Assembly: GCA_002763895.1 (NCBI GenBank)
Contig: NSLH01000027.1
Span: 1 to 32,935 of the forward strand
From: [Chlorobium] sp. 445
GTDB lineage: Bacteria; Bacteroidota; Chlorobiia; Chlorobiales; Thermochlorobacteraceae
Length of the DNA: 32,935 nucleotides
Reading direction: 5' to 3'
Each line of letters starts with the position of its first letter. The first letter of the stretch is position 1. The position numbers and the translations under genes were made by a program. Below, piece after piece: positions 2,630 to 26,456 of this stretch. Below the pieces are notes generated by a model. The model ran no database searches and was not told the DNA's origin. It worked only from the letters and a program-made list of their open reading frames with translations.

Positions 2630-3073
2630 TCAACTTCGGTCGTTGTGATGAGCTGAACACGATTCGCAGTAGCCACGAAAGATAACTTGATGCTCAATGT
2701 GTGTAAAACCCGTAGAGCGAGAAATATCGCTAGCAATTGAATCTAAATTGCATAAGTCAATTTCTTTGATCTTGCCACAATCTATACAGATGATGTGATG
2801 ATGATGTGCGAAAGGACGGGCAAATTCAAAACGCATGAATTCATCGCCAAACTGGATGCGAGAGACGATGCCAGCATCAGCAAGTTTATTGAGGGAGCGA
2901 TAAACAGTTGCAAGATCAACACCATAGCGAGAAAGTTGTGCGTGCACTTCAGCGGCAGTGAGGGGTTTTTTGTTGCGGTCAAGAATTTCCAAAATGCGTA
3001 TGCGCTGGTGTGTGACCTTGAAATCGTTTTGGCGCAGGAGCGTAGCGTATTTTGCTGATGCAGTTGCAGTCAT
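2630..3073 (-). CDS. Fur-family metal- or peroxide-responsive repressor (Fur/Zur/PerR)
   Basis: A 147-residue Fur-type regulator. The N-terminal winged helix includes KVTHQRIRILEIL (about 19-31) and VDLATVYRSLNKLADAGIV (52-70). The dimerisation domain carries the histidine cluster HHHH (90-93) and two CxxC pairs (C96/C99 and C136/C139) that form the structural zinc site. These features do not separate Fur, Zur and PerR. It lies between pyrC (20 bp upstream) and hemC (7 bp downstream), so heme synthesis and this regulator probably share a transcript. Control of tetrapyrrole synthesis by iron or peroxide is an attractive inference. GGAG followed by 7 bases precedes the ATG at 3073, one of the few clear ribosome sites in the window, and supports this start. 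Confidence 0.9.
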   Translation of the reverse strand: MTATASAKYATLLRQNDFKVTHQRIRILEILDRNKKPLTAAEVHAQLSRYGVDLATVYRSLNKLADAGIVSRIQFGDEFMRFEFARPFAHHHHIICIDCGKIKEIDLCNLDSIASDISRSTGFTHIEHQVIFRGYCESCSAHHNDRS

Positions 3074-8753: not shown

Positions 8754-8785
8754 TTACAAGCCCTGCTACTTACAAGCCCTGCTAC
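8754..8785. repeat. Two perfect 16-bp tandem copies at the end of the amylase gene
   Basis: The unit TTACAAGCCCTGCTAC occurs twice in direct succession in the short gap between the coiled-coil gene and the convergent amylase gene, and its second copy contains the amylase stop codon. It may be a simple replication-slippage duplication. No hairpin with a T-run is evident. Confidence 0.7.
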
Positions 8786-11700
8786 TTCCTAAGCAGCATT
8801 TTCTTTGTCTCCATAAACTTACCAGCGGTCAGGCGGTAGAAGTAAAGACCGCTAGCTAAGCCATAGTTTGCTGCATTAAACTTGATGACGTATCGCCCGG
8901 CTTCCTGCTTGCCTTCAACCAATGTGGCGACTTTCCGACCCAGCACATCATACACCTCGAGCTTGACATCGCCACTTTCAGCCAAAGCATAGCGCACAGT
9001 GGTTTCAGGATTGAAGGGATTGGGATAGTTCTGCATCAGGGCGTAAGTCTCAGGCACATCAAGCGTAACTTCGACACTGAAAGCATAGTCATGAATGGCG
9101 CCATCGTGGTCTACACTGCGAAGTTGGTAACGATGCGTTTGGTTAGGTGCAGCACTCTCATCGATGAATTTGTACTCTTTGCCGACAGGCGAGGTACCTA
9201 AGCCACGCAGTGACGCATGTTCACGATAGTCGGCAATAGGCTCACCATTACGCAAGATGATAAAGCCCGCATTGTGTAATTCACTTTCTGTGCGCCAATT
9301 GAGTTCGACGCGTCGACCAAGCGGTTTGGCTACAAACTGTGCGAGCGCAACGGGCAGTGGGTTATCGAGTGAGTTTTCTGTGCCCAGAGATACAAAGAAA
9401 TTTTCGCTCGATGTGAGCAAGGTGCTAAACGTGTTTGAGTTAAAGCCAGTCAGTACAGGTAGGGGGTCGGTATCCACGGAAGCAGGACCTTGCGCTTGCC
9501 AGTTGCCTGAAGTGCGCGTGGCAATTTTGAGCGTCGTGTTGTTATTGCTTGCGAGAACTGCATCATCGGAATTGATTGCCATATCGACAACTTGTGAGAG
9601 CGTAAGACTGTTGATGCCAGTGTTTTGAAACTCGTAGTAACGCAAGTCTGAGACTTTCACGAGTGGAAGGTCCGACAGCGCAAGAGCATTCGCTGAAGCT
9701 GTGATGAGTGTGCCACGCAGTGTGGTGCCGCTTGCAGATTGTCCAATCAGGGAGATCGGACGATACACGCTGGCATCACCTAAGGGATAGAGGCGTGAGA
9801 CCAGACTAGTATTATCAAAGGCACGTGCAAGGCGATTGTTGATGTAGCCAGCGGTGCGTTGCACGGCAGAAGGTGCAGGATTTGTAACCGACGCAAGAAA
9901 AACGCCGGTATTGAGGATACCGCTATTGAGCTCTAAGGTGTTCAGAACTGTAGGGCTACCTGTGAGCGAGGCGCCATCGGCGTCGTTAAGGTCAAAGTTG
10001 GTGAATGTCGCGCCACTTACTTGCACTGTAGCAGGTGCATTTTGCACAAGAATTTTACCCGTTGAGGCTAAAGCTGAACCAGTGCCTGTGATATTGCCAC
10101 GTACTTCAACATTGAGCGCGCCAATATCGAGAGTTGTGCCTGAACCAAGTGAGAGCGCAGGCTGCGAGACACTTGCTGTAAGGGTCATCGCTGTCGCGTC
10201 CAGCGCCTTCGTGCCTGTGCCAGCAGTCGCAAGGCGATTGGCGGTTGTGATTGCAGGTAAGCTGCCTTGGGCTAGAAAGCCTGTAATCTGGGCGCCGATG
10301 CGATTGAAGACATAGCTTGCACCAGTGTTGTAAGTTACCGTGCCGTTTGCGCGTATCGAGCCATTGAATGAACTGGGATTGTCGCCATTGACCCCTTTTT
10401 CATTGGCAGTGATGAGTGTAGCGCCTGAATTGAGCGAAAAGTTTGCTGTACCTGTATAATTAGTAAGGAAGCGCGTCTCACCAAATTCAATAGTACCGTT
10501 GACGGTAATTGTGCCAGTATTGCCAGTACGCAAATTAGCGTTGATGACACGCAGCGTTCCGCCTGAACTCACCGTAAGGTTCCACACATCAACATGACCA
10601 GTTGAGCCAGAGAGTGTGGTTGTGCCATCAATGACAAAGTTCATGGTGTTGCCAAAACTGGGGTTTGCATTCATGAAGCCATTGTTGACGATTGAGCCAT
10701 CGCTGCCTGTCATCGTAATGGTTCTGTCGCCTGATACAGTCAGTTGACAACTGCCTTCAGTGCGCAAACTGTGTTGAATGGTAAGGTTGTTAGTAATAGT
10801 TGTGGTTTGACCGTCAGCCGTTGTGGCATCAAAGAAAGTTGTGCCGTAGTCAGCGATGTTGTCGCTTGCACGTTGATTGATATAGCAAAAGCGCGAGAAA
10901 GCGGGTGTACTGCTGCCATCATCGGTATTCTCAATATCAAAATACAAGCGTGCAGTCAGATCGAGTTTGTCGGAAAAATCGTTATCCAGTGTAAAGCGTG
11001 AAAGTCCGCCGTAAGGATCAGTGCCATTGAGATAGAAAAAGACACGAAACGATTGCGGTCTGCCGCCCATAAGTGACCATGCGATAGCAATTTCCTGAAC
11101 ATTGCCCGATGTAGTTTTTTGGATGCTGGGACTGTTGTCGACGTTGGCATTCCATCCGCCAGCGCTATTGTGTGTGCGGTGTTGGTGATAGCCATTTCGA
11201 ATGAAGGCGGCAAAATTAGCTCGGAAAGGAAGCCTGCCGTAATTGTTGCCATCAAAGTTGCCGATGCCGCCGAGTGCACCATTTGCATTGCTGCCGCCAT
11301 TAGCAGGTGTTTGTGGGTCCGTGTCAATGTAAATAGCTAATTCATCCGTATTTGCATTGCCGTTAGCATCAACTGCGATATAGAGGTTGTTGTCGTCCCA
11401 CGCCATATACCAGTCGCGAGCGCCATCGTTGTAGCGGTTTGCGCCATTTGTGTGATCGCCATATTCGCCAGGAGCAATGATGCCATTGAGATTCGGTGGT
11501 GTAGAGAGAAACGAGAAGGTTGAAAAATCACCGCCGATAGCAAATTCCGAAAAAGAAGTTAGTCCAGAGACACGCAGGATATTGTTGCGTGGATAGGAAA
11601 TTGTAATGCTTGTAGCATTTGCAGCGCTCGTCCAAGGCTCAGAACTGTTGTTGCGTTTGAGCACAACGAGTCGGCGTGGGTCGGAAATGCCAGCAAGTCC

Positions 11701-14531
11701 GCTGATATCCAGCTCAATATCGTATTGATAGCCATTGAGACCGGACGGGGTAATTTGCCAGTATCGTGGAGCAATGTTGGTTACGGTAACAGTGCCTTTG
11801 GGAGAGAAGCCGGTTAAAGGCAAGCCGTTGGTTGGATTGAGTGGCAAGCCATTTTGCATATTGAAAAGCAGGCTACCAGCATCGTTGGAGGGTTGCGTGA
11901 AAATCACGCGGGCTTGTCGGTCGTTAGAAGCTGCAGCAATGAAAGTGCCGGTTGTATTAGCGGGAATAGGCACAGTTGCGCTGCCTGCAGCAGGCACAAG
12001 CTGAATGGCAACCGTAGCGCTATCGAGCGAAAATTGACTTGTGGTTTTGCCCCAAGCTGAAATGTAGTTCAATGAGAGCGGTGCGACATTTGCAGTGTTG
12101 GGCAAGTTTGGCGAAAGGTTATCGAAAATCGTGCCATCGCTTGGAGAGGTCGGTGCTGAATTTTGCTTGACAACGGCACGATTGAGCGTAGAAGCGCCTT
12201 CCACGATGAACTCAAACTGGCTATCGCTGAGGCGTTTTACAGCCACATTGCCCGGTGAATAAGGCATCGGGTGATTGAGCGTATTGACCACTTGCGGCGC
12301 GCGATAGGTAGCACGCACATAGACACGCTGACCAGTAGCATTAACCGATGTATTGCGAATGCGAATCGTATGCCAATCTGTTGTGCTTGGTGTATAGTTG
12401 ACGTTGAGATTGCTTGCGCCATTTGCACTGAAGACAAGCGTCTGATTTTGGAAGAGTGCAATGGTAACATCTTGCAGGGTCGAGCTGGTTTGGAAGACAC
12501 GCAAATTGATGGACTGACCTGCTTCGGGATAGATGTTGCCGACCGTACGCCAAGCTGTGGAGTGTGTAGGCAAACTTCCACCTTGCAGCAACGAACGCGG
12601 GTGGCTATCGCCAAGGTCATCAGCCATTTCCCACTCTTGCGTGATGGGTTTGGCGCAGGTGAGAAAGGTGCATCGAAATTGGCTTGTTCAGAGGTAGGTG
12701 CCCAGACGGCGTATCCACGTCGGCGTGTCGGTCCTGCTGGCGTCGTAATAGGTGCGCTCAAATCGCAAGGTGGAATATGAATCAGCACACGATTGCCAGA
12801 GCTACCAAAGGGCGGTTGGACGGTGACGGTAAAGTCATAAGTGCCACCGTAGTCTTTGAGCTCCGTGCCGACAGGGAAGGTCGTGGTAACCCAAACACGC
12901 TGCTCAGTGTTCCAACTGTCCGTAACGCCAATTAAAGCGCGATTGCCTCGCTCAAAGACGAGTCCGTCTTGCAGGTTGCCTTGCAAAAAGAAAGGTGCAT
13001 CTGGACCCGTTTCAGCCGTGCGCACATAGTAAGCACCACTTTTGAATTGCAATTTCTGGTGGCAACGAATGAGGTTGGCAATATCGCTGCGCACGGGTAG
13101 TAAAGAAGGATTATCAGGAAAATGCGTGTAGCGAATGCCACCCGAGCCAATGTCGAAGAGGTCTTCAAAAAACACTTGCGGTGAGCCATCGACAGAAAAA
13201 ATAATAGCGTATGCTGGTGCAAGGCGCGGCTCACGTGGGTCGATGTTGCGACCAAGTTCGCTGCTGCTCGTCCATGTTGAGCTCGGATAATCACCGTTGG
13301 ACTGCAAGGGTGGGCGGAACGTATCATGATTATTAACAAACGGCACTGTGCGCCCGCGATTGTCTTGCTGCAAGCTCGGAATGGTACTCATATCGAAAGC
13401 GCCCAGACCATAGACCATACCAACTAACCCATCCAGGCTAAAGCCACGCAAACCGAAGTCAAAAGTGCCCGCGCGATTATCGACGCCACCTAAGTTGCGG
13501 CTAGTGCCGGAAAGTCCACCTTCTAGCACACTTTCAGGTGCAGGTGGTGCGCCTGCCCATTCATCGAGTTCAGTTTTACCGCCAACCCATTCACCAATCG
13601 AGAGAATATCCCAGCCTAAAGCAGAACTTCCGTTTACGCCTTGAGTGATGTCGCCTGTGGAACTTGCAACATGCCAGACAAAATCATGCACAATGTGCGG
13701 CTCGAAGTGCTTGACCGCATCGAAACGATAGCCATCAATGCCGATTTGTTTAGTGTGCCAGATAAACCAGCGGCGAAGTTCATTGCGCATGTAGTTGTTG
13801 GACTGCGGCGGATTGAACACAAGAGGATTGCCCGTCGGGAGCGACGATTGCCCGTAGGCGCGTGGGTCGTAGCAGATGTCAGGACCAAAAAAAGCGGAAG
13901 TGACATCGTTGAGCGAGCTGCCGGGATTGCCACCAAAACCGCGCCACGTGTTCGGGTGAAAATTTACCCAGTTTTTGGGAAAACGACCACGGCGACCGAT
14001 GTAGTCAACCGAATCACCAACAAACTGTGGTGTAAGAAACGAAGTGTAGCGGAAAATTTTATACTGATCGTCTTGTGCTTGTGGATCGCGTACCTGTGAG
14101 CCGATGATGTGGTTAAAGACAATATCTTGTACCACTTCCATGCCGTTGGCATGCAAAACGGCAGCCATACGCAGCAGTTCATCTTTCGTGCCCATGCGCG
14201 TGCGCACATTACCCTTCTGAAATTTGTCGCCAAGATCGTAGTGGTCAAAAGGTGCGTAGCCAACAGCAGTCGGACCGCCTTCGTTTTTAATCGTTGGAGG
14301 AATCCAAACCGCATCAATTCCAAGTTCACGCAAACGCGGCGCAAGATCAGCAAGATAATTCGACCACGCAAACGGATAATTGTTGTTCCAATAATCCCAC
14401 CAGAAGCCTTGCAGAACAACGCGTTTAGTAGTCTGCGACCAGAGCGAAAGCGGAAAGGCAAAAAAGACGACAAAAAAGAAAGTAAAGAACGTACTAATGC
14501 TGTGTTGCTTTGCTGTAGACTTCATTATCAT
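8782..14531 (-). CDS. Giant secreted alpha-amylase (GH13) with T9SS sorting domain, broken by one frameshift
   Basis: Signal peptide at about 1-33 (LSLWSQ end), then a GH13 catalytic domain: VVQDIVFNHI (region I), GYRFDAVKH with nucleophile D271, SIGEWVGG with acid/base E314, and VNNHDT with D403. All four regions are intact. After the catalytic and beta-sandwich part the literal frame degenerates near APFS. One extra C at 12667-12668 gives APFLTCAKPITQEWEMADDLG and joins a second long frame. The join predicts about 1,916 residues. Later parts include a DOMON/CBM9-like segment (NGIIAPGEYGD, ... WDDNNLYIAVDANG), Asn/Thr/Gly-rich beta-repeat sequence, an FnIII-like region (RRVELNWRTESELHNAGF) and a T9SS type A tail (QNYPNPFNPETTVRY ... 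FMETKKMLLRK). The downstream frame alone has no signal peptide, which a T9SS substrate needs. The likely role is extracellular starch or glycogen breakdown, on the cell surface or released. Confidence 0.9.
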
Positions 14532-15731: not shown

Positions 15732-17270
15732 ATGAACACGCTTTCGCTTGTTTTCAGAAATATCGCACAGCGCGCGCTATCTGTTACACTTACAGGGATT
15801 TCAATTGCGCTCGGTGTTGCCTTGATTAGTGCTACAGTTGAAATCAGGCGACAAGTCGAGGAAAACTTTAGCCAATCGAGCGTCGGCTACGAAATGATTT
15901 TGGGCGCAAAGGGCAGCGCGCTGCAATTGGTGCTCAACACCGTCTATCAGCTCGGTGACCCCGTCGGAAATATCCCCTACGCAGTCTATCAAAAATACCG
16001 CAATCATCCGATGGTAAGCTACGCTATTCCCTACGGGCTAGGCGATAACTACAAAGGCTTTCGCATCATTGGCACTACAGAAGAGATTTTCACGAAGTTT
16101 AACTACAAACCCAATCAGACCTTTGAACTAGCCGAAGGCAGAACTTTCAAAGATGATGAACTTTATGCTGCGGTTTTAGGTAGCGATGTAGCAAGGCAGC
16201 TGAAATTGAAAATTAGTGATACCTTCATTGCGACACACGGCTTGCAGGAGGTTGCGCCAGAAATGGCTATCAAGCACGAACACGACCCGATGAAGGTAGT
16301 TGGCATCTTAAAGCCAACTTACACGACCTCTGACAAGGCAATTTACATTTCGCTGCCAACTGTTTGGGCAATTCACGAAGAGCAAAAGGAAGAAGAGCTG
16401 GAAGTCAAAAATGACGAACTGGCTCGAATGCGAAAAGATGCGCAAACAGAATCGGCGCTGGCATCCTTGGGCAAAGACGCTGGTGATAAAGTCAAGCAGG
16501 AAGAAAAAAAGAATGGACACAACATGTCTGCACGCCAGAACGATGAAGCAGCGATGATAAAACATGATGAGCATGTGCATAAAGAACATTCACATAAGCA
16601 TGAGCATAAGACGCAAGCCACAACAGAGGGTACAACTGCTCAAGCCAAACATTCTGATGGTTCACCGCATACGGATGGTGACGATCACCCCGATCATCAT
16701 CACGAGCATAAGGTGCCAAAAGAAGGCGATGTGACAGCAGTTATTCTTAAAACCAAAGCCCCAATTTTTGCGTTACAGCTCTACAAAATCATCAACAGCG
16801 AGCCGCTGGCACAAGCAGCAATTCCGACACGAGAAATCAAAAATTTGTTTGATATTGTCGGCAATATCAATTGGGCGTTTCTCTTCATTACGCTGCTGGT
16901 GATTGTGGTGGCGCTCATCGGAGTGATGGTTGCTATTTACAATTCACTTAATGAACGGCGGCGCGATATTGCGATTATGCGTGCCCTCGGAGCACATCGC
17001 TCGCGCATTTTCGGTATGATTACACTCGAAGCTGCACTGATTTCACTCTTTGGCGCTGCATTTGGCATTGTGCTAAGTAAAGTTTTGCTGCTCTCGCTCA
17101 AAGGTGTGGTGCTCGAACGCACAGGCGTAGAACTTTCTGCACCAATTTTTAATTCGGGAGAAATAGCTCTAATTTTGATAGTTACAGCAGTTGGAGCACT
17201 GGTTGGTATTATACCAGCTATTAACGCATACCGTACTGATGTTGCAAAGAACTTGAACCCAATCAGTTAA
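15732..17270 (+). CDS. FtsX/MacB-type ABC transporter permease with histidine-rich insert
   Basis: A 512-residue permease with four likely membrane spans: one near residues 15-35 and three in the C-terminal FtsX domain (about 380-402, 427-455, 478-497). The periplasmic domain is large. The family motif RRRDIAIMRALGAHRSRIFGMI is split around residues 409-430. Between about 220 and 330 lies an extra Glu/Lys- then His-rich segment with 15 histidines in residues 263-326 (for example HVHKEHSHKHEHK and HPDHHHEHK), a likely metal-binding loop outside the membrane. No ATPase gene is adjacent. It is followed after 16 bp by the DUF3299 gene. DUF3299 proteins are known to me beside FtsX-type permeases in zinc-regulated clusters (PA4063-PA4066-like, Vibrio zrg). 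Zinc or other metal involvement is inferred. Confidence 0.85.
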   Translation: MNTLSLVFRNIAQRALSVTLTGISIALGVALISATVEIRRQVEENFSQSSVGYEMILGAKGSALQLVLNTVYQLGDPVGNIPYAVYQKYRNHPMVSYAIPYGLGDNYKGFRIIGTTEEIFTKFNYKPNQTFELAEGRTFKDDELYAAVLGSDVARQLKLKISDTFIATHGLQEVAPEMAIKHEHDPMKVVGILKPTYTTSDKAIYISLPTVWAIHEEQKEEELEVKNDELARMRKDAQTESALASLGKDAGDKVKQEEKKNGHNMSARQNDEAAMIKHDEHVHKEHSHKHEHKTQATTEGTTAQAKHSDGSPHTDGDDHPDHHHEHKVPKEGDVTAVILKTKAPIFALQLYKIINSEPLAQAAIPTREIKNLFDIVGNINWAFLFITLLVIVVALIGVMVAIYNSLNERRRDIAIMRALGAHRSRIFGMITLEAALISLFGAAFGIVLSKVLLLSLKGVVLERTGVELSAPIFNSGEIALILIVTAVGALVGIIPAINAYRTDVAKNLNPIS

Positions 17271-17286
17271 ACTATCTGTAACATTA

Positions 17287-17907
17287 ATGAAAAAGATGAG
17301 AAAACTTCTGCCAAGTCTTGTCGTGATTGTCGGCATTGTGCTCAGCAATGTCATCATTAGCCTCAACACGCAGAAAAAGGTGGCATTTCAAGAAGCACTC
17401 TATAAATTGCGTCAAGAACATCGCTTGAAAGTAGAGACTGTAAGCTATGTACTTGCCGATGCAACCAGTATGCAGCCAGCAGGTACGCGCCTGACCTTCA
17501 ACGATTTGCGAGAGTATCGATATAGCAAGCGCGATCGCTACCCACTGCCCGAAAAACTTAAAGCGCTCAAAGGTCAAGAAGTCAACATTGCTGGCTACAT
17601 GATTCCAATGAGCGAAGCACTCGATGTAACCGAATTTATGCTGGTGCAAATTCCGTTTTTTGGCTGCTGTTACTCTGTGCCGCCTGAACCTAATGAAACC
17701 GTCATGGTCAAAATGGCAAAAGGAAAAAAGACAGAATATGTCTATACCCCGATTCGCGTAACCGGTAAGTTTGATATTCAGGAAACCAAGATAGATGGTT
17801 TTGTCGTTAGCTTGTATCAAATTGAAGCCAGTGCAGTAACTCCTGCACCGAACGACAAAGATGTGTTGCAGCATCAAAGCGGCACGCTATTGCCGGGACG
17901 AAACTAA
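17287..17907 (+). CDS. DUF3299-family envelope protein
   Basis: A 206-residue protein with an N-terminal signal/anchor (about 7-27, LLPSLVVIVGIVLSNVIISL). The DUF3299-like core reads EVNIAGYMIPMSEALDVTEFM, then LVQIPFFGCCYSVPPEPNE, comparable to the family pattern of Cys-x-His-x-PPP-x-PN but with CC and Ser in place of His. The next segment, RVTGKFDIQETKIDGFVVSLYQIEA, is family-like. Molecular function is not established. It lies 16 bp after the permease and 14 bp before the next gene, so the three are almost certainly one transcript. It probably acts in the periplasm with the permease. The 8-mer CTGTAACA precedes its ATG in place of a Shine-Dalgarno sequence. Confidence 0.75.
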   Translation: MKKMRKLLPSLVVIVGIVLSNVIISLNTQKKVAFQEALYKLRQEHRLKVETVSYVLADATSMQPAGTRLTFNDLREYRYSKRDRYPLPEKLKALKGQEVNIAGYMIPMSEALDVTEFMLVQIPFFGCCYSVPPEPNETVMVKMAKGKKTEYVYTPIRVTGKFDIQETKIDGFVVSLYQIEASAVTPAPNDKDVLQHQSGTLLPGRN

Positions 17908-17921
17908 GCTAACTGTAACAA

Positions 17922-18386
17922 ATGCTCATGCGCCGAGTTCTATTGCTTTTGATGCTGATGTGTCTTGCAAGTGCAAGTCTGGCTCAGGCACAGACCGTGC
18001 CTGCAATACAACCTCCTGTGGATAGCGGCACAGGTACATCGCTGCAAAATCTGATGTTTTGTTCTTGCGCAAGACATAGCGGCAACGCAATAGTAACAGA
18101 TCCCATGCAGCAACTTCAAAATGGTCGAAGACTTGGTGTGGCAGGGGTGAAAGTACTTGATGAGATGCCCAAAGGAGGAGTCATTGTCTCAGAGCTCACG
18201 CTGGAAAGCCCAGCGTCTGCCGATAGTTCGGAAAATTACGGCTACAAACGATTTTATGCGCTCTTGCAGCTTAAAGCGCAAGCGGCGCAGCACGGCGCAA
18301 ATGCCATCGTAGACTTCAAGCAAGCGCTTAGTAGTGAAGGTAGCAGAATCATTTTTTCAGCTAAAGCTGCAAAAGTAGAGCCATAG
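17922..18386 (+). CDS. Secreted small protein, weakly YbjQ-like, unknown function
   Basis: 154 residues with a signal peptide ([21 protein letters not shown], cleavage near QAQ). ATG at 17928 is an alternative start. The mature part has FCSCARHSG, with two close cysteines, then [15 protein letters not shown] and [22 protein letters not shown]. The last segment resembles the helix-plus-GANAI pattern of YbjQ-type heavy-metal-binding-domain proteins, but the match is weak. It follows the DUF3299 gene by 14 bp and precedes clpX by 29 bp. It is likely part of the permease operon. Its role is unknown. Confidence 0.6.
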
Positions 18387-18415: not shown

Positions 18416-19720
18416 ATGCCGCGTGGAAATAGAACATCAAACGACAACAACGATGATTTAACCGTATACTGCTCATTTTGTGGCAGATCAAGCGATGAAG
18501 TAAATAGTTTGGTTGCTGGGCAAGAAGCCTACATTTGCGATCGTTGCATTCAAAGCTCGATGGAAATTATTCGCAATGATATGGCGTCAATTCAAGCGCG
18601 GCGCCGTGCATCACGCAAATCCAAACTGCTGACGCCAGCCTCCATCAAGCAAGAACTCGATAGCTTCGTTGTCGGGCAGCATCATGCAAAAAAAGTGCTG
18701 GCTGTCTCCGTCTACAACCACTACAAGCGCATTGAGAGCGAAGACTGGCTCTTCAACGAAAGCGACGTTGTGCTTGAAAAAAGTAATATCTTGCTGATTG
18801 GACCCACAGGCACTGGCAAGACCCTGCTGGCACAGACACTCGCCAAAATCATTGATGTGCCTTTCACGATTGCTGATGCAACAACACTAACCGAAGCAGG
18901 TTATGTCGGCGATGATGTCGAGAGCATTCTTGCACATCTTTTGCAGGCAGCAGATTTTAACTTGGAACGCGCAGAGCGTGGCATTGTCTATATTGATGAA
19001 ATTGACAAAATCGCGCGCAAGAGTGCAAATGTCTCTATCACGCGCGATGTCTCTGGCGAAGGCGTGCAACAGGCTCTACTGAAAATTTTAGAAGGCTCAA
19101 TTGCAGGTGTGCCACCAAAAGGCGGACGCAAGCATCCAGAGCAACACTTGGTGAATGTCAATACAAAAAATATCCTTTTTATCTGCGGCGGAGCATTCGA
19201 AGGATTGGATAGAATCATCGCACGACGACTCTCAAAGTCAGCGATGGGCTTCAACGCAATGCCCGTAACGAAGTCCGAACGTGAAAGTCCCGAACTGCTC
19301 AGTAAAGTCATTCCCGAAGATCTCTTGGAGTTTGGCTTAATTCCCGAATTTATTGGACGATTGCCCGTCATCACGACCTTAGAGCCACTCGATCGAGCCG
19401 CACTCAAAAGCATTTTGGTGGAGCCAAAGAACGCTATCACGAAGCAGTATCGCAAACTCTTCGAGATGGAAAATGTCGAACTGATCTTCGAGCCCGAAGC
19501 ACTTGACGCCATTGTAGATGAAGCCATAAAGCGTGGCACAGGTGCACGAGCACTGCGCGCCATTCTAGAAAACGTGATGCTGGATATTATGTTTGATTTG
19601 CCCGCAATGCGTGGGCTAAAAACCTGCATCATTACGCGTGAATGCATTACTGATAAAGCCCCGCCAACCTATCTCTACGACGAAGGACGGGAAGGTGGAA
19701 GGAAAAAAATTCCTGCCTAA
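18416..19720 (+). CDS. clpX: ATP-dependent Clp protease ATP-binding subunit ClpX
   Basis: AAA+ unfoldase that feeds substrates to ClpP. The 434-residue protein has the N-terminal zinc-binding domain (C19, C22, C41, C44), Walker A GPTGTGKT (129-136), [18 protein letters not shown] (pore and Walker region), Walker B VYIDEIDK, the sensor region, [12 protein letters not shown] and the C-terminal [13 protein letters not shown]. Length is normal. CAGGGAC lies about 9 bases before the ATG. clpP and tig, common neighbours of clpX, are not adjacent here; instead it follows the DUF3299/permease genes by 29 bp. It is convergent with rfbB. Confidence 0.97.
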
Positions 19721-23250: not shown

Positions 23251-24908
23251 ATGACAATTGAGACGCAATTTACTTTAGAACATCCCCCCGAATTTTATGT
23301 GCGCGAAGACCTTCTCAAAACCAAGTGGCAGCGCATTGCGGCGATTGCTGATAAAATCAAGCTGGGCGGTGGCAAATCGGCGATAGAAAAGCACCATGCC
23401 AAAGGCAAACTCACGCGCGCGAGCGTATTCAAAGACTTCTCGATAAAGGCTCGCCATTTTTAGAAATTGGACTGTTTGCAGCCTATGAAATGTATCAAGC
23501 TGAAGGTGGCTGTCCAGCGGCAGGGGTTGTCGTCGGCATTGGCAAAGTACATGGACGCAACTGCATGATTGTGGCAAACGATGCGACGGTCAAAGCCGGG
23601 GCATGGTTTCCGATGACCGCAAAGAAAAACATCAGGGCGCAAGAAATTGCGATGGAAAATCACTTGCCGGTCATTTACCTTGTCGACTCTGCCGGCGTGT
23701 ATTTGCCGATGCAAGATGAAGTCTTCCCCGATAAAGAACATTTTGGGAGGCAGTTCAGAAACAATGCGGTGATGAGTTCGATGGGCATCCCACAGATTGC
23801 AGCTGTGATGGGACCGTGTGTTGCAGGTGGGGCATATTTGCCGCTCATGTGTGATGAATCGCTGATTGTCGAAGGTACAGGTAGCGTGTTTCTTGCTGGG
23901 TCACATCTTGTGAAAGCCGCAATTGGTGAAGTCATTGACAACGAAACCTTAGGTGGCGCAACCACACAGACGTTTATTTCGGGCAATATCGACCACAAGA
24001 TGCCAAACGATGAAGCTTGCTTGCAACGCATGCGAGAGCTGGTGTCGCAATTTGCTGACAAGCCAAAAGCAGGATTCAGTCGTATTGAGCCAAAACCGAC
24101 GAAGTATCCGACATCAGAAATTTTAGGTTTCATCCCAGAAGACCGCACAAAGCCCTACGATGTGATGCCGATTATTGAGCGAATCGTAGATGCAGAATCT
24201 TTCATACCGTACAAGGAAAACTATGGCAAGACCATAATCTGTGGTTATGCTCGCCTTGATGGATGGGCAGTGGGGATTGTGGCAAATCAGCGCTTGATGG
24301 TAAAGAATGCAAAAGGTGAAATTCAAGTCGGTGGCGTGATTTATTCAGACAGTGCAGACAAAGCGGCACGCTTCATCATGAATTGCAATCAACGCAAAAT
24401 TCCGCTCATCTTTTTGCAAGATGTAACGGGCTTTATGGTCGGTAGCCGTGCTGAGCATGGCGGCATTATCAAAGATGGAGCAAAGATGGTGAATGCGGTC
24501 TCAAACTCTGTCGTCCCAAAAATCACGGTGATTATGGGCAACAGTTTCGGGGCAGGTAATTACGCAATGTGCGGTAAGGCATACGATCCACGCTTTATTT
24601 TTGCTTGGCATACGGCGCAAATTGCGGTTATGGGCGGCAAACAAGCCTCAGAGACTCTGCTCTCTATCAAGCTCGGTCAGCTCGAAAAAGAAGGGCGTAG
24701 CATCAGCGACGAAGAGAAAGCCAAGTTTCTGAGGGAAATTTCGGAGCGATACGAGGCGCAAATGAATCCGCTTTATGCGGCAGCACGTTTATGGATAGAT
24801 GATATCATCGATCCAAGAGAGACGCGAAACATTTTGGCCTATTGCCTCGAGCTGGTCAATGAAAACCCAAACCTGCCGGTCTTTAATCCGGGCATAATTC
24901 AGACCTAA
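23251..24908 (+). CDS. Acyl-CoA carboxylase carboxyltransferase subunit, with a frameshift
   Basis: Transfers CO2 from biotin to an acyl-CoA. From the ATG at 23251 it runs to KHHAKGKLT, where the literal frame fails and stops near 23463. Inserting one base at about 23414-23415 (in ACGCGCGCG) restores LTARERIQRLLDKGSPFLEIGLFAAYEMY, giving about 552 residues, normal for this subunit. Later motifs fit the methylcrotonyl/propionyl-CoA type: AYEMYQAEGGCPAAGVV, VYLPMQDEVFPDKEHFGR, VMGPCVAGGAYLPLM, EGTGSVFLAGSHLV and GVIYSDSADKAARF. Substrate (propionyl-, methylcrotonyl- or another CoA) is not decided. The biotin-carboxylase/BCCP partner is not in the window. A propionyl-CoA role would fit the epimerase at 14697. 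Confidence 0.92.
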
Positions 24909-25111: not shown

Positions 25112-26207
25112 TCAATCGCCAAACTCCATCAAGTAGCGCTCAATGAAATCATCGATATCGCCATCCATGACATTCTCGACATCGAAGCGTTCATAATTGG
25201 TGCGGTGATCTTTAACACGTCGGTCATCGAAGACATAGCTGCGAATCTGCGAGCCCCACTCGATTTTCTTTTTCTTGCCTTCCAGTTCGCGCCTTTTAGC
25301 TTCTTCTTCTTCACGCTTGATTTGATAGAGGCGTGATTTAAGCATTTTCAAAGCGCGCTCTCGATTCTGCAACTGCGAGCGTTCTTGCTGACAGGCAACC
25401 ACAATGCCTGTTGGCAAATGTGTAATGCGTACAGCTGTTTCAACTTTATTGACGTTCTGACCGCCTTTGCCGCCGCTGCGAAACGTATCAATTTGCAAGT
25501 CTTCACGACGAATTTCAATTGGCGCATCTTCAGGTGCTTCAGGATAAGCAAACACACTGGCAAAAGAAGTATGTCGGCGCGCATTGGCATCAAACGGGGA
25601 GACACGCACAAGACGATGAACGCCGTTCTCCGCTTTAAGATAGCCGTAAGCATAATCGCCGATGATTTCTAGCGTGGCGGTTTTAATGCCAGCGCCTTCG
25701 CCTTCTTGATAGTCGTCGGTATAGACTTTGAACCCGCGTCGTTCTGCCCAACGCATGTACATTCGGTAAAGCATCTCTGCCCAGTCTTGCGCCTCGGTGC
25801 CACCGGCGCCAGCATGGATGGTCAGAATCGCATTGCGTTTGTCGTCAGGTCCAGAGAGCATGTTTTGAAATTCCATCGCGCGCACCTCTGACTCTAACTT
25901 TGCAAGATGCTTTTCGGCTTCGGGAAGGTAGCTGGCTTCTTCGAGTGCTGCGGCTACTTCAAGCGATTCAGCTTCAGCTTTCACTGCAGCATCAAGGCGA
26001 GCAAAAGCTTCCGTCCAAGATTTGTGTTCAGAGATTTCTTTCAGAATTTTCTGTGCAGCAGCAGGGTCATTCCAGAACGTATCGGAGGCAGTTTGTGCTT
26101 CCAGTGCCTTGATTTTTTCAAGGCGAGTGTCAATCTCAAAGAAACCTCCGGAGCGACTGAAGGCGCTCGTTGAGCGCGCGCACGCGCTCGAGTTCCGCTT
26201 CAAACAT
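25112..26207 (-). CDS. prfB: Peptide chain release factor 2 with programmed +1 frameshift
   Basis: Recognises UGA and UAA stop codons and releases the peptide. The true start is the ATG at 26207. Twenty-three codons ([23 protein letters not shown]) end at an in-frame UGA (26138-26136) in the context CGGAGG-TTT-CTT-TGA-G. A +1 slip at CTT gives [14 protein letters not shown] and the rest of the protein, 364 residues in total. Domain markers are SPF (in [15 protein letters not shown]), which fixes RF2 specificity, and GGQ in [16 protein letters not shown]. The Shine-Dalgarno-like CGGAGG just before CTTTGA matches the known autoregulatory frameshift of E. coli prfB. The open frame upstream to 26452 is artefactual. 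Confidence 0.97.
26130..26150 (-). promoter_or_regulatory. prfB recoding site
   Basis: In the minus-strand reading, CGGAGG (Shine-Dalgarno-like), three bases (TTT), then CTT-TGA-G. When RF2 is scarce, the ribosome pauses at UGA and shifts +1 on CTT to make full-length RF2. This is the canonical RF2 arrangement, recognised from established knowledge of prfB. Confidence 0.9.
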
Positions 26208-26456
26208 AGCGTGGCTAGAGTTATCTGGTTAATTTTTTCAGGCAGCAAATGTAGCAAATTTTGAGCCGATATGAAAACATCGTGGCACGGCTTATCTATT
26301 GATAGCCAACAAAAAGTGGTTTTGGTTTCTGAAGTTTGCACCTTTAACTTTGCGCCAAATTTTAACGACATAACATCGAAGACAAAAACCGTATAGCATA
26401 GCTCGGCTGCAGTGCTTGAAGAGTTGTGACAAATTTTCTCTGATGAAGTCATCCTA

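Follow-up and report, generated by a model that had tools for sequence, protein, structure and literature searches.

The locus described here raises the question of what task is served by three tightly spaced genes, for an FtsX-type permease whose periplasmic insert is rich in histidine, for a DUF3299 protein and for a small secreted protein, and where the ATPase of such a permease is encoded. The genes lie in the window, i.e., the whole stretch of 32,935 nucleotides of [Chlorobium] sp. 445 DNA that was analysed, in an operon-like arrangement with intergenic gaps of 16 and 14 bp, and clpX starts 29 bp past the third gene (Table 1). ORF coordinates, Pfam matches and residue counts bear out the original prediction with regard to this spacing and to the 15 histidines of the permease insert, and its link to zinc-responsive DUF3299/FtsX clusters was right. 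The permease and the DUF3299 protein can be assigned to the Zrg system. Judged by sequence, the permease is ZrgB-like and the DUF3299 protein ZrgE-like, and the locus is filed as a variant, incomplete ZrgABCDE, i.e., a Zrg system without ZrgA, with a histidine loop in the permease and with an unlinked ATPase.

Table 1 Features of the Zrg-like locus and its surroundings in the window.
Feature	Position	Strand	Evidence or conservation
Fur-family regulator, possible Zur	2630..3073	-	PF01475 1.5e-29
ZrgB-like permease, MacB/FtsX superfamily, 512 aa	15732..17270	+	Pfam FtsX and MacB_PCD, AF2 model, Foldseek
D105 codon, near-invariant, permease periplasmic domain	16044..16046	+	112/113
H169 codon, candidate metal ligand	16236..16238	+	112/113; the remaining one is an alignment gap
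H182 codon, candidate metal ligand	16275..16277	+	112/113
D201 codon, invariant	16332..16334	+	113/113
H215 codon, candidate metal ligand, immediately before insert	16374..16376	+	107/113
His-rich insert, permease residues 216-332, 15 His	16377..16727	+	predicted disordered from about residue 251
ZrgE-like DUF3299 periplasmic protein, 206 aa, N-terminal signal/anchor, sole copy in genome	17287..17907	+	PF11736 6e-19
C127-C128 of DUF3299 (C-x-H in proteobacterial members)	17665..17670	+	alignment
Secreted 154-aa protein, YbjQ/RcsF-like fold	17922..18386	+	Pfam, predicted fold
C-x-C-x-x-H motif (C47, C49, H52) of 154-aa protein	18060..18077	+	family-invariant
clpX, next downstream	18416..19720	+	ORF call, Pfam, gene order in relatives

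The order permease, DUF3299, 154-aa gene, clpX is kept in five of nine Thermochlorobacteriaceae genomes from three genera, and thus goes beyond chance. In a fourth genus the permease gene is relocated, the DUF3299 and 154-aa genes still standing together in three of its four genomes. All nine genomes encode the permease, each together with exactly one DUF3299 gene. We regard clpX as probably co-transcribed with the trio and do not count it as a component of the Zrg-type system.

The statement that the ATPase is missing holds for the neighborhood, where no ABC ATPase was found in the flanks examined, and fails for the genome, since the genome-wide search that had been proposed recovered, on contig C3 (G000:C3:35730-36386), an orthologue of the operonic ATPase of sister families. 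This protein is the best match to the operonic ATPase of genome G094 (58% identity, compared with 43% for the next-best ATPase of the same genome), and the ATPase tree places it with those from the G013 and G094 operons (support 98/95), the other LolD-like ABC ATPases of the family forming a separate group (99/99). It occurs in eight of nine family genomes, the ninth being 81% complete, and in none of these eight does a permease gene lie beside it. The arrangement ATPase, permease, DUF3299 is seen in sister families belonging to the same order and more widely across Bacteroidota. The cognate, ZrgC-like ATPase is present and unlinked, and we infer from orthology that it drives the permease of the window. 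A true loss of the ATPase is thereby ruled out, and borrowing of any LolD-like ATPase by the permease is less likely because a specific orthologue exists.

With Pfam matches to FtsX (9e-16) and MacB_PCD (1e-11), the permease combines an FtsX domain with a MacB-type periplasmic domain, which places it in the MacB (type VII) ABC superfamily, and it is expected to span the membrane four times with the periplasmic domain between TM1 and TM2. Its AlphaFold2 model has a core with pLDDT >90 and a disordered insert; Foldseek returned MacB (5gko, E=2e-16) as best match, and LolE, a MacB-like transporter of S. pneumoniae and the heme exporter HrtBA were the other closest solved structures. The overall permease fold and the FtsX C-terminal domain are thus shared with MacB, LolCDE, HrtBA and YbbAP, from which the permease of the window differs by the absence of a lipoprotein, macrolide or heme context. 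Closer relatives are ZrgABCDE of V. cholerae and V. parahaemolyticus and PA4063-PA4066 of P. aeruginosa, which have a MacB-like permease, a similar stand-alone ATPase and DUF3299 in common with the variant described here, whereas the cluster of the window lacks ZrgA and the ATPase, carries the histidine-rich stretch inside the permease and has in addition the YbjQ-like C-x-C-x-x-H protein and the linkage to clpX. The ZepA system (PMC10957091) was rejected as a match, its published gene context listing no such permease.

The insert contains 15 histidines in 117 residues, compared with a background of 1.9% histidine in 14 other window proteins (binomial P=7e-9), in which no other stretch of 117 residues holds more than 8. 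The original prediction had placed the histidine-rich part in the permease instead of in a separate DUF2796 protein (ZrgA), which stands; its further suggestion of a fused ZrgA domain does not, as the insert is an unstructured, low-complexity loop that is disordered in the model and PF10986 is absent. Nor is the histidine-rich permease a peculiarity of this window: at least five insert histidines are found in 87 of 113 permeases, across many phyla and in unrelated sequences. Within the family, the insert is present in eight of nine members, rather than missing throughout the clade, and genome G002 keeps the genes almost without it.

Length and sequence of the insert vary among relatives, and on the permease tree it has been gained and lost repeatedly (11 changes). 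Together with the near absence in G002, this unconserved sequence is what would be seen if the insert were a neutral low-complexity expansion without a role. We nevertheless consider such an expansion quite improbable, given that most relatives are histidine-rich despite unrelated sequence, that the insert always adjoins H215, and that it alternates with ZrgA. For ZrgA (PF10986), no match was obtained in the six family genomes searched, and none of 47 permease-bearing Bacteroidota genomes exceeded the cut-off. P. aeruginosa and Rhodobacterales records show the order ZrgA, ATPase, permease, DUF3299. Where ZrgA stands beside the ATPase, in P. aeruginosa and in the three Rhodobacterales Phaeobacter, Sulfitobacter and Pseudooceanicola, 0-1 histidines occur in the permease linker (none in the three Rhodobacterales), compared with 15, 9 and 7 in three alphaproteobacterial loci lacking an annotated ZrgA, a comparison based on a small sample of loci that are not fully independent. 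Catenovulum and Deinococcota have neither ZrgA nor a histidine insert. The best reading of this distribution is that ZrgA and the histidine loop may stand in for each other as zinc collectors, with the permease core staying constant.

That core was examined in an alignment of 113 permeases including that of the window, from Bacteroidota, Acidobacteriota, Planctomycetota, Gemmatimonadota, Proteobacteria, Deinococcota and others, with a median identity of 35% to the window permease outside the insert. Two aspartates and three histidines of the periplasmic domain are invariant or nearly so (Table 1), the remaining histidines being conserved to a lesser degree. As 80 of the 113 permeases were gathered by a scan with a motif at residues 56-65, the collection was not selected for these five positions. 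All five are shared by the P. aeruginosa permease, and the sole properly aligned paralogous FtsX permease of the family (L018) lacks H169 and H182. In the permease model, a loop that connects two strands has H169 and H182 on either side, H215 is found near the start of the next helix, and a shared candidate metal site formed by H169, H182 and H215 is plausible on this basis. The near-invariant histidine/aspartate set, as read from the alignment, is the transferable finding of this analysis. It is retained in Deinococcus, Bacteroidota and Pseudomonas alike and, if metal-binding, would mean that the ion is handled by the permease, with no need for ZrgA or a metallophore.

Beyond its Pfam match, the DUF3299 protein matched the PA4066 structure (4hsp, E=6e-16), which has been described as OB-fold like (PMC8561739). 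In the alignment, DUF3299 relatives have a cysteine with a cysteine or histidine partner, and the Thermochlorobacteriaceae members have vicinal cysteines. DUF3299 also occurs in other arrangements: in G286 (L072:5603-6490) a MerC membrane domain is fused to DUF3299 in a gene that immediately precedes those for a Zrg-like ATPase and a histidine-rich permease, and Sulfitobacter and Pseudooceanicola have two tandem DUF3299 genes after the permease (L276:4768-5768 and L277:4820-5763). The weak YbjQ likeness noticed earlier in the 154-aa protein was recovered as such, with YbjQ_1 (PF01906) remaining below threshold (E=0.054, 14.5 bits vs a cut-off of 23) and the predicted fold matching YbjQ/DUF74 and RcsF structures. 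What distinguishes it from these proteins, apart from the Pfam score, is the family-specific C-x-C-x-x-H motif N-terminal to the fold. Within what was searched, the protein is found outside Thermochlorobacteriaceae in a single sister-family genome (G279), where the ATPase (partial, at a contig end), permease, DUF3299 and 154-aa genes are all together.

The genomic surroundings of the relatives point to zinc. Of 98 relative loci, 21 have a COG0523/CobW GTPase gene within a few kb, 15 a Fur-family gene and 15 a MerC gene, compared with none of 25 control loci, with each profile seeded from two to three of the 98 loci and the controls coming mostly from one family. COG0523 proteins have been tied to the zinc-starvation response (PMC2770081), and the Vibrio zrg genes are Zur-repressed and required under zinc limitation (PMC9817125, PMC9820375). 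These neighbors support, rather than prove, a role in zinc scarcity over detoxification. The opposite case, in which the system detoxifies or exports excess zinc or another metal and the histidine loop acts as a sensor, could draw on the fact that histidine-rich segments occur in efflux proteins too. Given the zinc-starvation neighbors and the Zur repression of homologues (PMC9817125), we regard it as very remote. The metal export considered in the original prediction is the less supported direction because zinc starvation is the condition with which both the neighbors and the characterised homologues are associated, though a 2024 P. aeruginosa study argues for metallophore export.

ZnuA was found in none of nine family genomes, which are drafts (six of nine with completeness of 90% or more and contamination of 5% or less), whereas 11 of 14 controls were positive, and no Zip protein exceeded the cut-off in the family genomes. 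Zinc supply is therefore the more likely role in Thermochlorobacteriaceae. At the threshold applied, the permease had no match in Chlorobiaceae-like genomes. The role expected of the system resembles that of ZnuABC, i.e., high-affinity zinc supply with a histidine-rich loop, from which it differs by an unrelated permease type and, in this family, by the lack of a ZnuA-type binding protein.

With respect to regulation, no conserved Zur box or shared palindrome was found upstream in the family in a scan that covered nine permeases and two operonic ATPases, nor did a search for TGCAATNNNATTGCA in five genomes establish Zur control. The Fur-family regulator in the window, one of three Fur paralogues in its genome, is possibly a Zur. 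In G013, a perfect palindrome, TGCAATTAAATTGCA, lies just upstream of the Zrg-like ATPase (L179:1501-1515; G013:C1:2899132-2899146) and may be a Fur-family box; the only other perfect site in this genome is not beside a recognisable zinc gene.

Taken as a mechanism, these observations would be explained, with reasonable though not high confidence, by a ZrgA-less ABC system of Zrg type, belonging to the MacB superfamily and active when zinc is scarce. The histidine-rich insert would gather periplasmic Zn2+, taking over the job of the histidine-rich loops of ZrgA, and hand it to the core site in the same domain (H169, H182 and H215, with D105 and D201 nearby); the unlinked ATPase, by binding and hydrolysing ATP, would then drive a MacB-type conformational change in the permease, and this change would pass on the bound metal, in all likelihood into the cytoplasm, with the DUF3299 and C-x-C-x-x-H YbjQ-like proteins as putative periplasmic accessory metal carriers. 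To our knowledge, every MacB-type permease characterised to date acts by transmitting motion rather than by importing ions, so that the import step would be unprecedented. Counting against this explanation are, within the family, the lack of a conserved upstream Zur box and the persistence of the genes in G002 almost without an insert. The same holds for two reports on homologues, in which deletion of P. aeruginosa PA4065 did not lower cell zinc, its authors arguing for pyochelin-cobalt export (PMC11481552), and the histidine loop of V. cholerae ZrgA proved dispensable (PMC9820375).

Whether Zrg systems import zinc or export metal complexes is disputed. Export of a metal complex or a metallophore by a MacB-type transporter, protecting the cell in zinc starvation, as proposed for PA4064/PA4065 and pyochelin-cobalt, would agree with the MacB-like model, with Foldseek matches that include HrtBA and with the P. 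aeruginosa genetics and ICP-MS (PMC11481552). It would also agree with one relative locus, in Rhodobacteraceae M382 (L279:1369-2583), where an HlyD-like barrel-sandwich protein that would suit an efflux partner is encoded upstream of the Zrg-like ATPase/permease. We still think this unlikely for the window, because phyla across which the periplasmic histidine/aspartate set is near-invariant are unlikely to share a single metallophore, and because no HlyD/MacA-like gene was noticed beside the permease in the listed family loci, whose ORFs were scanned in part. No MacA or TolC partner was noticed at these partly scanned loci.

The MacB superfamily mechanism would also agree with periplasmic metal loading, in which mechanotransmission by ATPase and permease frees zinc held by the permease or by DUF3299 and supplies it to secreted zinc enzymes rather than to the cytoplasm. 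In this vein, alkaline phosphatase genes are linked to a deep branch of relatives in Deinococcus, Thermus, Allomeiothermus, Paracoccus and Shinella, the one gene scanned being of PF00245, a zinc enzyme family. No alkaline phosphatase was noticed beside the system in Thermochlorobacteriaceae, and ZrgA-type relatives support growth under zinc limitation, which fits uptake better, so that loading, too, is improbable. The deep-branch ATPase/permease pairs with alkaline phosphatase come from Deinococcota and some Alphaproteobacteria (L282:571-4676, L157:2734-7227, L158:3057-7164, L280:535-4769 and L281:509-4748), and a small protein lies in between, which is DUF3299-like in Deinococcus and Thermus.

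Returning to zinc uptake as the preferred reading, the system is a zinc-supply candidate for a phototroph family in which neither ZnuA nor a Zip protein over the cut-off was detected. More tentatively, and as a proposal that we would not yet favor, the histidine triad in the MacB-type periplasmic domain might bind metal directly and define a class of MacB-fold metal transporters, with ZrgA as a late, lineage-specific stand-in for the built-in histidine loop and with the Thermochlorobacteriaceae system, its ATPase encoded apart, replacing ZnuABC as the main dedicated zinc importer.

Elsewhere in the window, several ORFs may be affected by frameshifts or start-site differences. An alpha-amylase-like ORF (12237-14531) overlaps, out of frame, a long ORF (8782-12627) that ends in a probable sorting domain, and the two (8782-14531) look like a single gene split by a frameshift. 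The carboxyltransferase ORF at 23490-24908 seems to start late compared with a longer N-terminus in G007, possibly owing to a frameshift or a start-site difference, and the peptide release factor ORF at 25112-26452 has an odd N-terminus ahead of GGFFEID, which fits the known programmed prfB frameshift.
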